This document shows positions 25,399-28,426 of a DNA stretch of 37,001 nt, one piece after another. Positions within the stretch are counted from its first letter, which is position 1, and each line of letters starts with the position of its first letter. The notes under the pieces were generated by a model that did no database searches, was not told where the DNA came from, and saw nothing but the letters and a program-made list of their open reading frames with translations. Origin of the DNA: Hungatella sp. (GTDB taxonomy: Bacteria > Bacillota > Clostridia > Lachnospirales > Lachnospiraceae); the NCBI GenBank assembly GCA_022796015.1, contig JAAWHU010000030.1, forward strand, positions 1-37,001, in the 5' to 3' direction. The position numbers and the translations under genes were made by a program.

Positions 25399-25965
25399 AT
25401 GGAATGGGAAGATGGAAAGATAAGATGCTGGTGGGCGAATCCGAAGAACGAGAAGTATATCCGATACCATGATGAAGAGTGGGGGATCCCTGTTTATGAT
25501 GATCACAAGCTTTTTGAGATGCTCATATTGGAATCCTTTCAGGCAGGCTTGTCGTGGGAATGTGTGCTGAATAAGCGGGAAGCATTTCGGAAGGCTTTCG
25601 ATGATTTTGATCTGGAGAAGGTCTGCGGCTATGGGGAGGAGAAGCTTCAAAAGCTTAGGGAGAATCCGGAAATTATCCGCAATCAGTTAAAGATTCGGGC
25701 AGCTGTAACCAACGGGAAGATCTTTCGTGAGATTCAGAAGGAGTACGGAAGTTTTTCTAACTATGTGTGGCACTGGACTAAGGGAGAAGTGGTCTATGAG
25801 AAGGGGGAGAGCCGGTCTGAGCTTTCCGACAGAATGTCAGAGGATCTGAAACGGAGAGGCATGAAATTTGTGGGGACTACCATCATATATGCTTATCTCC
25901 AGGCGGTGGGAGTAATCTACTCCCATGATGAGGGGTGTTTTTTGGAGAAGAAGGAACAAGGGTAA
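25399..25965 (+). CDS. tag: DNA-3-methyladenine glycosylase I
   Basis: Base-excision repair enzyme of 188 aa that removes 3-methyladenine from alkylated DNA. The N-terminus IRCWWANPKNEKYIRYHDEEWGIPVYDDHKLFEMLILESFQAGLSW is diagnostic. Zinc-snap ligands would be Cys10, His24, His176 and Cys180, the last two in SHDEGC near the C-terminus, as in E. coli Tag. The C-terminal GMKFVGTTIIYAYLQAVGVI is also conserved. AGAGGAG precedes ATG 25399. It follows the esterase gene after 37 nt without a terminator. The base composition changes just after its stop codon. Confidence 0.93.
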   Translation: MEWEDGKIRCWWANPKNEKYIRYHDEEWGIPVYDDHKLFEMLILESFQAGLSWECVLNKREAFRKAFDDFDLEKVCGYGEEKLQKLRENPEIIRNQLKIRAAVTNGKIFREIQKEYGSFSNYVWHWTKGEVVYEKGESRSELSDRMSEDLKRRGMKFVGTTIIYAYLQAVGVIYSHDEGCFLEKKEQG

Positions 25966-25975
25966 GAGGAGCTCT

Positions 25976-26808
25976 ATGGAAGAAGAAAAAAGATATAAGG
26001 AAGCCTTAGAAACTGCGCAGGAAATAAATATTATTGAGAATGTAATGATACAGACTGTGATTACATAGATGTCATTTACATCCTTAATGAGCGGTCTCGA
26101 GAAAGGCGATTATGTAATACCAAGATTTCAAAGAATGTATCGCTGGAGTGAAACCCAGGCAGAAGAACTGGCGGTTTCTTTGGTGCGCGGGCTGCCGATT
26201 CCCCCTATTTACTGTTACCGCAACCGAGACCAGCAGATGGTTATTTTAGATGGGCAGCAGAGAATTCTAAGCCTGTATCTTTATTATATCGGTAAGTTTT
26301 TGAAGACTAAAAAAAATGCATTTATTGATCTGAAAATTCCCCTAAATGGCGTCTGCTATACAGCGGCAGTCAGAATGCAAAGATGAACAAAGAAAGCAAG
26401 GATGTGGAATTACTATTAAAAATGTGCGCATTTAAGTATTATGTAAAAGGGAATGGGGCAAAATTTACACTAGACCAGTATAAAGGGAAAGTAGGCATAT
26501 TGCTGGATGAATTTTCGGAAAAGGCCATGGATTTTGGCAGTGCTCAGATTGAAGAATACAGACATGCCCTGCTGTCTTTTATGGAATGCCTGGAAGGAAT
26601 CAGAGGAAGCAACAAGGACCTGGCGATGATTAGTCTGTTTGTGGTGTGGGACAGGCTTGACAATCAATTATATATTTCTAAGCAGAAGGTTGCTCGTATT
26701 GTGGAAAATGATGATTACCGCAGTACGATTTTGCAGGGAACAGCAAAACGTGAAAACATAGAAACACGGTTAGGGAGCGTTTATGAACAATTATCAAAAG
26801 ATGATTGA
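25976..26808 (+). pseudogene. Broken DUF262 (GmrSD N-domain-like) gene
   Basis: Remnant of one gene in three readable pieces. Piece 1 (25976-26065, 30 codons) ends at an in-frame TAG (26066-26068), directly followed in the same frame by ATG 26069. Piece 2 (26069-26386) carries the DUF262 landmarks GDYVIPRFQRMYRW and ILDGQQRILSLYLYY (the DGQQR motif). Piece 3 (26383-26808, overlapping as ATGA) reads SKDVELLLKMCAFKYYV onward. Its frame stays open upstream of ATG 26383 and reads PKWRLLYSGSQNAKM, so pieces 2 and 3 were one gene joined by an out-of-frame deletion near 26340. The central part of the fold is missing. DUF262 domains occur in GmrSD and SspE nucleases. The DNA is AT-richer than its neighbours. 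Confidence 0.75.
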
Positions 26809-27745
26809 TGAGATTACGGATATTGTCTGTAATAACGAGGCACAGAGAAAAAGTTATGTCTTAATCGGGGACAACTCTTCAGGTAAATCCGATATTCTGC
26901 GGAATGTGATTCAAAAAAGACTTGAAGGGGCAGTTTATTTTATTGACTCCGTAAACCGATCATTCAATACTGACTTAATCGAATTTGTAAGCAGATCCTA
27001 TGAAGCCATAAGGGCAGATTCTTTTTCTATTGTATCAGAAAGAATTGATCCCTTTTATTTTAATTTAAGAGACACCCTTAAGCCTGCCCCAGAGCAGTTA
27101 TTCCGCAGGTATCATGATGGAATTGAGAGGCTGTGCAAATCGTTTTTAGGTATAGATTTACAGATTAAGAGAGAAAATGTACAGATTGGTACGCCGGAAA
27201 ATAAGGTAATTATAGATGGAAATGAGGTAAAGCTTTCCAGCGGATACCAGGCTGCGGTGCGCCTTTTTTGTGAAATACTGTTTTTTGAAGAGGCTATGAA
27301 GAGAAAGGGATGGAACAGGGGGCTTGCCGTAATTGATGAAATAGACGAATATCTTTCCCCGAAATACAGTGCAGATATTTTAAATTTTCTCCAGAAAGAA
27401 TTTCCGGCAATGGATTTTCTGGTAACCACTCATTCTTTGGATCTGGTAAAGAATATCCATAACACAAACCTGATTATCTTGTATCATGATAAATATGAGA
27501 TATGGGGAGATGCCCAATTAGAAGGCGGCCGGCTGGCGGAGGATATCTTCACAAGCTTGTTTTTTGAAGATAAGATAATTCATAAGTCGGATAATGATGT
27601 GGTAGATGAAGAACTGAGGAGATTGCTGAACCTAAAAATTGCAGAGCTGTGGGATGAAAAGGCCCAAAGAGATTTGGATAAAATAGGTCTGGGGAAATTA
27701 AAGCCTCATCAGAAGATGATATACAGGCAGATTGAGGAGTGGTAA
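26783..27745 (+). CDS. SMC/ABC-like AAA ATPase of a defence-type cassette
   Basis: ATPase of 320 aa, apparently intact. Walker A is GDNSSGKS (residues about 29-36), a signature-like LSSGYQAAVRL lies near 152-162, and Walker B is LAVIDEIDEYLSP near 180-190. The switch His lies in VTTHSLDLVKN. This is the AAA_15/21 (OLD/RecF-like) class found in many anti-phage systems, including PtuA of Septu. No nuclease (TOPRIM) domain is visible. GGGAG precedes ATG 26783, and the gene overlaps the DUF262 remnant by 26 nt and precedes a broken HNH gene. Both neighbours are broken, so it may be a surviving fragment of an inactive system. It is AT-richer than flanking genes. Confidence 0.8.
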   Translation: MNNYQKMIDEITDIVCNNEAQRKSYVLIGDNSSGKSDILRNVIQKRLEGAVYFIDSVNRSFNTDLIEFVSRSYEAIRADSFSIVSERIDPFYFNLRDTLKPAPEQLFRRYHDGIERLCKSFLGIDLQIKRENVQIGTPENKVIIDGNEVKLSSGYQAAVRLFCEILFFEEAMKRKGWNRGLAVIDEIDEYLSPKYSADILNFLQKEFPAMDFLVTTHSLDLVKNIHNTNLIILYHDKYEIWGDAQLEGGRLAEDIFTSLFFEDKIIHKSDNDVVDEELRRLLNLKIAELWDEKAQRDLDKIGLGKLKPHQKMIYRQIEEW

Positions 27746-27749
27746 TAGG

Positions 27750-28404
27750 TTGGAAGATTATTTTACGGTGGATATCCCTGTATTTGTGCCGAAATATGAT
27801 GAAAATACCAAGTACGGGTGGAGTAAGTATAAAGATAATTTATGGGAAGTACTGAGGAAGACAACAGACGGATATTGTATGTATTGCTATGATTCCATAT
27901 GGATTAACGGACAGAGGCGAGGGCAGATTGAACACGGCATTGAGAAGGCAAATTCCAGACAATGAATGCAGAAAATATGATTGCAAGGAACCATGTGAAA
28001 AGTATAAGAAACTGCGCATGAGCTATATACGGAAGGGGAGAATCATGATACAGCCTTTCGGAACAAGAATGTGTGACCAGGGCAATGAACTGCGGATACA
28101 ATATGATCTTCTCAGCCACAAATATATTCCCAGTAAAAATCATGGGGAATACAGTGAGGAAGAGCTGGAGATCATAGAGGGACATATAAAACAATTCGGT
28201 CTTAACACCCCCGAGAGAAAAAACTACGAAATAGGAAGATACTGCAAAAATGTAATCAGCAGTGAATCTCTCATGAAGGGTGTGGAATATAATAATCTGA
28301 TTGTCAATCTATTTAGAGAAAAGCTGGCGGATTTAGATATGACGAAGGTTGTAAAAATATGTATGGTTGTATACAGTAATTCCTTTCAACAATTAGCTAC
28401 ATAA
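27750..28404 (+). pseudogene. Frameshifted HNH endonuclease gene
   Basis: Two frames hold one former gene. The first (27750-27965, TTG start 10 nt after GAGGAG) reads DGYCMYCYDSI and RGQIEHGIEK, the CxxC and EH...K half of a zinc-containing HNH nuclease, then stops. The second, in the +1 frame from about 27950 to 28404, reads IPDNECRKYDCKEPCEKY, RKGRIMIQPFGTRM and LLSHKYIPSKNHGEYSEEELEIIEGHI. The segment expected between them (Asn plus a second CxxC/N zinc knuckle) is absent, which suggests an out-of-frame deletion. The nuclease should be inactive. The ATPase plus HNH order resembles PtuA/PtuB (Septu). An ATG at 27889 opens the second frame but has no clear ribosome site. Confidence 0.7.
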
Positions 28405-28426
28405 AAGCGGACGAGGAAAGATATTA

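Follow-up and report, generated by a model that had tools for sequence, protein, structure and literature searches.

Remnant of a probably horizontally acquired DUF262/PtuA-like ATPase/HNH cassette related to Menshen in a Hungatella genome

The window, that is the whole stretch of 37,001 nucleotides analysed here (contig JAAWHU010000030.1 of a Hungatella sp. genome), carries at 25976-28404 on the + strand the remnants of three adjacent genes which code, in this order, for a DUF262 protein, an ATPase and an HNH nuclease. A preliminary description had reported three AT-rich genes in this order, set tightly between ordinary genes, and both points were confirmed. The DUF262 gene was recognised by Pfam GmrSD_N, the ATPase gene by alignment with a relative, and the HNH gene by pieces matching an NsnC model of PADLOC, in whose model names Nsn (NsnA, NsnB, NsnC) presumably stands for Menshen. 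The GC content of this segment is 38.8% compared with 50.0% for the rest of the window, and the lowest value among 297 equally long stretches outside it was 45.1%. According to Pfam the flanks are ordinary genes, a methyladenine glycosylase at 25399-25965 and a histidine kinase from 28427. The following features were assigned:

25956..28412, + strand: inserted cassette, approximate extent; its neighbours touch at the corresponding site in the same-genus genome G003
25976..26068, + strand: 5' piece of the DUF262 (NsnA-type) gene, ending at the in-frame TAG 26066-26068; open reading frame list, and in tblastn the alignment with the L021 DUF262 protein continues through the TAG
26069..26386, + strand: DUF262 core piece; GmrSD_N, PADLOC NsnA and DNA alignment; frame lost after a deletion of ~328 bp at ~26341
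26383..26808, + strand: 3' piece of the DUF262 gene in another frame; tblastn against L021, PADLOC NsnA 4.4e-5 (model 227-379)
26783..27745, + strand: compact PtuA-like ABC/SMC-type ATPase; 320 open codons, 57% identity to L021, in a clade of its own
27750..27965, + strand: 5' half of the HNH (PADLOC NsnC) gene with CxxC and EH motifs; NsnC PDLC03885 8.1e-25 (model 1-70)
27956..28404, + strand: 3' half of the HNH (PADLOC NsnC) gene in another frame, open from 27889; NsnC 4.1e-38 (model 107-249)

The lesions were measured against L021, a relative with three open genes located in a metagenome-assembled genome of an uncultured Eubacterium sp. In the window GmrSD_N (DUF262) matched 26069-26383 (9.4e-20), the core piece matched PADLOC NsnA (1.8e-19, model 51-131), and the DGQQR codons lie at 26249-26263. 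The L021 gene reads on where the window has its TAG. The missing ~328 bp, whose loss shifts the frame, cover residues ~127-232 of the 388 in the L021 protein. Downstream, the 3' piece is 53% identical to L021 residues 235-390, in a tblastn alignment that is continuous with the final part of the piece before it. DGQQR as well as L201, N202, Q211, E212, R214, N215 and G216 are invariant in all seven rows of a DUF262 alignment, and the stretch holding the latter seven residues fell in the part deleted from the window. The ATPase gene overlaps the DUF262 gene by 26 bases, as in L021, aligns with its L021 counterpart from end to end, and carries GDNSSGKS at 26867-26890. Compared with L021, about 122 bp are missing from the HNH gene at ~27956 with a shift of frame, which removed about residues 70-110 of the 258-residue L021 protein and thereby half of the metal/catalytic motif. 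C43, C46, E61, H62, K66, C76, N79, C84, C87 and N88 were present in every row of an eight-row HNH alignment, and C76, N79, C84, C87 and N88 fall in the missing part. Two of the three genes are thus broken, as had been described, and because the deletions took away part of the DUF262 core and part of the HNH active site, this copy should not work, in line with the earlier view that it is probably dead.

Errors of assembly or strain mixing, with a locus that is intact in the cell, would be conceivable in a genome of 163 contigs which is 88.55% complete. They are nevertheless very unlikely, given three separate lesions, two of them deletions of ~328 and 122 bp in coding sequence, an open ATPase gene in between and open flanks; besides, other loci are also broken, in other ways. 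Alternatively, the pieces could be used as they are, either as separate proteins made from the split DUF262 halves or as a phase-variable locus, since the ATG of the last DUF262 piece overlaps the stop of the preceding one and the ATPase gene is open. However, what the deletions take out is conserved core sequence, both in DUF262 and in the HNH motif, and each protein is one chain in the open relatives, so that we regard such use as extremely improbable.

Open relatives of this decayed copy had been predicted, and seven trios with the order DUF262, ATPase, HNH were indeed found (L021, L043, L044, L045, L046, L049 and L131; in L131 the first two genes were recognised by eye and the HNH gene by search). 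PADLOC model NsnC PDLC03885, which has a length of 255, matched in 17 of 397 genomes of the same family at E <= 0.001. At E <= 1e-10 it was found in the window's genome only among 398 genomes of the phylum, and in the window's genome and one more among 275 genomes of the order. Several searches together yielded 15 HNH-type loci: seven open, six broken and two beyond judging. The lesions of the six broken loci among the 13 judgeable ones differ. L047 has one stop each in the ATPase and HNH genes, L050 a frameshift in the ATPase gene, and L051 a deletion and a frameshift in the DUF262 gene together with an ATPase gene that is mostly missing and an HNH gene reduced to half; L052 shows large deletions near a contig end, L115 frameshifts in the DUF262 gene and, near a contig end, in the HNH gene, and the window copy is broken in its DUF262 and HNH genes. 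The two loci outside this count are G440, which lies at a contig end, and L048, the second copy in the window's genome, in which the ATPase and HNH genes are open and the preceding gene runs off the contig. The earlier proposal was to count as refuted if homologues of the ATPase rarely had both a DUF262 and an HNH neighbour. Such rarity was not seen: NsnA matched on the same contig in 10 of 12 NsnC PDLC03885 loci (E <= 1e-10), and the other two lie at contig ends.

The second set in the window's own genome (G000:C79:33424-35646, corresponding to L048 11425-13647) is divergent, its ATPase being 20% identical to that of the window and its HNH protein 23% to that of L021. The same genome carries, at G000:C153:12979-13905, a match to a PtuA-like ATPase followed by a PtuB match with a short frame of 144 aa, which is perhaps a damaged or contig-cut Septu pair.

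Decay seemed more frequent in HNH-type loci than in related genes. Their DUF262 genes were broken in 4 of 10 cases compared with in-frame stops in 4 of the 45 strongest NsnA rows (Fisher p 0.029; p 0.08 without the window), a comparison in which deletions were counted on one side and stops on the other and the weaker partial rows G347 and G253 were left out. Similarly, HNH-type NsnC loci were broken in 5 of 11 cases (the contig-cut G440 was dropped) compared with stops in 1 of 28 PtuB rows (p 0.004; p 0.012 without the window); on the PtuB side three further short frames stand outside the count, and the 1e-10 limit on a weakly matching model would hide broken genes. As criteria and controls were unequal, we set excess decay aside as a result and keep it as a lead only. 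Repeated breakage of HNH-type trios is a possible sign of a cost to the host.

The corresponding site in G003, a genome of the same genus, is empty. On its contig C17 the glycosylase (304-861) directly precedes the kinase (867-2555; matched spans), and these flanks are 83% and 81% identical to those of the window at the DNA level. Given this empty site, the most likely origin is a bare insertion of ~2.45 kb that brought in the three genes alone. The alternative is a loss of the trio from G003 instead of a gain in the window, and one genome cannot decide between gain and loss. The histidine kinase was detected at E <= 1e-60 in 2 of 26 same-genus genomes, the window's own and G003, and the glycosylase at E <= 1e-50 in 11 of the 26; the site was compared in the window's genome and G003. 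Purine-rich stretches similar to GAGGAAGGA are found at both ends of the insert, and as they look like ribosome-binding sites we do not claim a target-site duplication. The trio of L021 sits between proB and proA, as judged from translations read by eye.

To which known system do these genes belong? PADLOC NsnA matched at E <= 1e-10 in 84 of the 397 family genomes, with bit scores of 74-154 for HNH-type loci and 196-418 for 45 other rows. We examined 20 NsnA loci, comprising 18 of the 45 high rows, the weak row L114 and the HNH-type L115. In 14 of the 18 high rows (L096, L097 and L099-L110) a DUF262 gene is followed by a gene for an ATPase of 358-387 aa whose start is unlike that of the HNH-trio ATPase (in L102 the contig stops within the ATPase gene). 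On contigs that extend far enough, a third gene of 249-337 aa, or 120 aa in L103, comes next. These PADLOC-typical trios of DUF262, ATPase and third gene are referred to as canonical Menshen in the following. In L098 no DUF262 gene was flagged by our script, and L111-L113 have other partners. The DUF262 proteins of three open HNH-type relatives matched NsnA over most of their length (6.4e-45, 5.3e-43 and 2.6e-45), distantly, since two canonical ones reach 2.8e-125 and 1.6e-102. Profile comparison linked the HNH-type DUF262 proteins with canonical NsnA as well (99.4%, E 1.8e-21); among solved structures there was one weak DUF262 match only, at 0.033. By sequence, the DUF262 part of the HNH trio is thus Menshen-like, and its gene likewise comes first, before an ATPase gene and a third gene.

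All five open HNH proteins scanned matched NsnC PDLC03885 nearly over its full length (2.4e-54 to 1.6e-87). In contrast, four canonical third proteins matched NsnC models other than PDLC03885, with three different best models among them, and the two that were scanned with Pfam gave no HNH match. One canonical third protein (L107:2799-3662) has a C-terminal match to Pfam Gp49 (DUF891) at 4.7e-10, which points to a different type of effector. Searches with the HNH protein of L021 gave no match in plasmid and phage collections, a scan of viral contigs with the HNH alignment found none, and solved structures gave no match to the HNH protein at E <= 1. Viral contigs did contain ATPase matches at 14 loci, confined to residues 144-264 with 28-36% identity, which we read as generic ATPases. 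None of seven open proteins scanned was named by NCBIfam above its cut-offs.

The locus might simply be decayed Menshen like any other, with the HNH protein as one of many NsnC variants. We take this as a serious possibility, quite conceivable though not the probable one. The HNH protein has its own NsnC model, the NsnA matches are of the order of 1e-45, the gene order is the same, and NsnC is varied, as seen from the three best models above; moreover, a 2025 paper is named after Menshen domain polymorphism, going by its title in reference lists. Against this stands the ATPase, which is not the NsnB of the canonical trios. The ATPases of three open relatives gave weak matches to only part of the NsnB model (7.1e-11, 4.1e-18 and 4.2e-13), whereas two canonical ATPases matched it over the full length (1.3e-113 and 2e-86). 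Pfam AAA_15 exceeded its cut-off in the two canonical ATPases scanned and stayed below it in the two from HNH trios. Furthermore, in a tree of 26 ATPases the HNH-trio proteins form a clade with 100/99 support, separate from the canonical NsnB clade (100/100). A distinct branch related to Menshen therefore remains our preferred reading of the trio. The set had been called a possibly undescribed defence system, which is too strong because an NsnC model for the HNH protein is already present in PADLOC and NsnA matches the DUF262 protein; what stands is that the match to Menshen is not exact, since the ATPase is not canonical NsnB. No paper on a DUF262-ATPase-HNH trio was found among the matches listed in a literature search of titles and the beginnings of abstracts. 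Li et al. 2025, reportedly on Menshen polymorphism to judge by the title, could well describe the HNH branch.

By profile, the ATPase resembles that of Septu and of the PtuA-PtuB effector pair of retron I-A. In PADLOC the best match of the window ATPase was PtuA (3.1e-17); NsnB matched at 3.8e-12. The profile of HNH-trio ATPases matched the PtuA profile at 99.3% (E 4.1e-20 over 83 columns), confined to the C-terminal ATPase motifs, and the canonical NsnB profile at 80% (E 1.4e-5 over 66 columns). The direct match between PtuA and canonical NsnB (98.0%, E 2.2e-13) is stronger than that of the HNH-trio ATPase with NsnB. Among solved structures, the L021 ATPase had 12 sequence matches at E <= 0.1, all of them PtuA or retron ATPase chains. 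The HNH-trio ATPase appears to be of its own kind and, judged by profiles, nearer to Septu PtuA than to canonical NsnB. The earlier suggestion was that the operon would combine the logics of Septu and of GmrSD/SspE; a combination of two logics is supported, because the ATPase is PtuA-like, the HNH protein weakly PtuB-like and the DUF262 protein NsnA-like.

If the locus were Septu (PtuAB) to which a DUF262 gene has been added, this would account for the PtuA match and for an HNH nuclease gene placed after the ATPase gene. Yet the ATPase clade stands apart from the ten Septu-type ATPases sampled, which split into two groups in a tree for which the tool warned that long branches meet (neighbours were inspected for seven of the ten, by open reading frame list and eye, and all seven have an HNH-like gene next to them), and its members are shorter, with 316-338 aa compared with 411-458 aa. 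The HNH proteins of three open trios likewise matched NsnC at 8e-73 or better in PADLOC, compared with 9e-8 to 3e-5 for PtuB, and the HNH alignment did not match a five-row PtuB alignment by profile (0.3% probability). Such a system is therefore rather unlikely. The trio shares the DUF262 domain with DGQQR and weak SspE matches with the GmrSD, BrxU, SspE and GrwA group (DUF262 plus DUF1524, which in GmrSD usually share one chain), but its proteins are separate chains with an ATPase gene in between; among six proteins of two open trios Pfam gave GmrSD_N only and no DUF1524.

Taken with the Menshen and Septu comparisons, the locus is likely to be a decayed, probably horizontally acquired anti-phage cassette of an NsnA-type DUF262 NTP-switch protein, a compact PtuA-like ABC ATPase and an HNH nuclease filed as NsnC. 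Our best reading places it, as a dead copy, in a distinct HNH/PtuA-like branch that is related to Menshen and has a presumed function in defence. Most likely the cassette came in without accompanying genes, landing between the glycosylase and kinase genes, and at least three later changes inactivated it. As for working copies, their DUF262 protein may sense phage DNA or a DNA-bound state via its NTP pocket, the ATPase would hold and then release the nuclease, and the HNH protein would cut DNA or tRNA and so stop infection, as reported for PtuAB. This succession of sensor, gate and effector is modelled on the literature on Menshen, PtuAB and DUF262. One report presents DUF262 as a likely DNA-modification sensor that uses NTPs (PMC12137116), and according to another, Menshen loses protection without its DUF262 gene, its partner being described as a predicted OLD nuclease (PMC10952713). 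For a Septu of E. coli, it is reported that the Walker motifs of PtuA and H75 or N91 of PtuB are needed and that tRNA-Tyr is cut (PMC13096335). Retron-Eco7 PtuAB leads to tRNA-Tyr degradation and another PtuAB is reported to degrade DNA (PMC11555353). More tentatively, and with a good deal of doubt, the DUF262/PtuA-like ATPase/HNH trio may be a separate putative defence system, a Septu-like module under a Menshen-type DUF262 sensor, which spreads as a bare cassette into sites between host genes and imposes such a cost on the host that it is broken in place again and again.

The dead window copy matters mainly because it points to the open trios. Parts of these carry Menshen names in PADLOC although their ATPase belongs to a different lineage. 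Should open copies prove protective against phage, two distinct ATPase-effector modules would be seen to be driven by one kind of DUF262 sensor, and the question of what such proteins sense could be approached directly. A check for enrichment of such sets in defence islands had been suggested as well. Defence genes lie beside two of the seven open trios, the two whose neighbours were searched with profiles. L049 is accompanied by PglZ and BrxL genes (BREX), a DndA/SspA-like gene and a TOTE-type primase-helicase, and L045 by a TOTE-type gene. In these two genomes, which belong to different genera, the TOTE-type primase-helicase gene of 989 aa adjoins the trio (L045:2624-5593 and L049:8909-11878).
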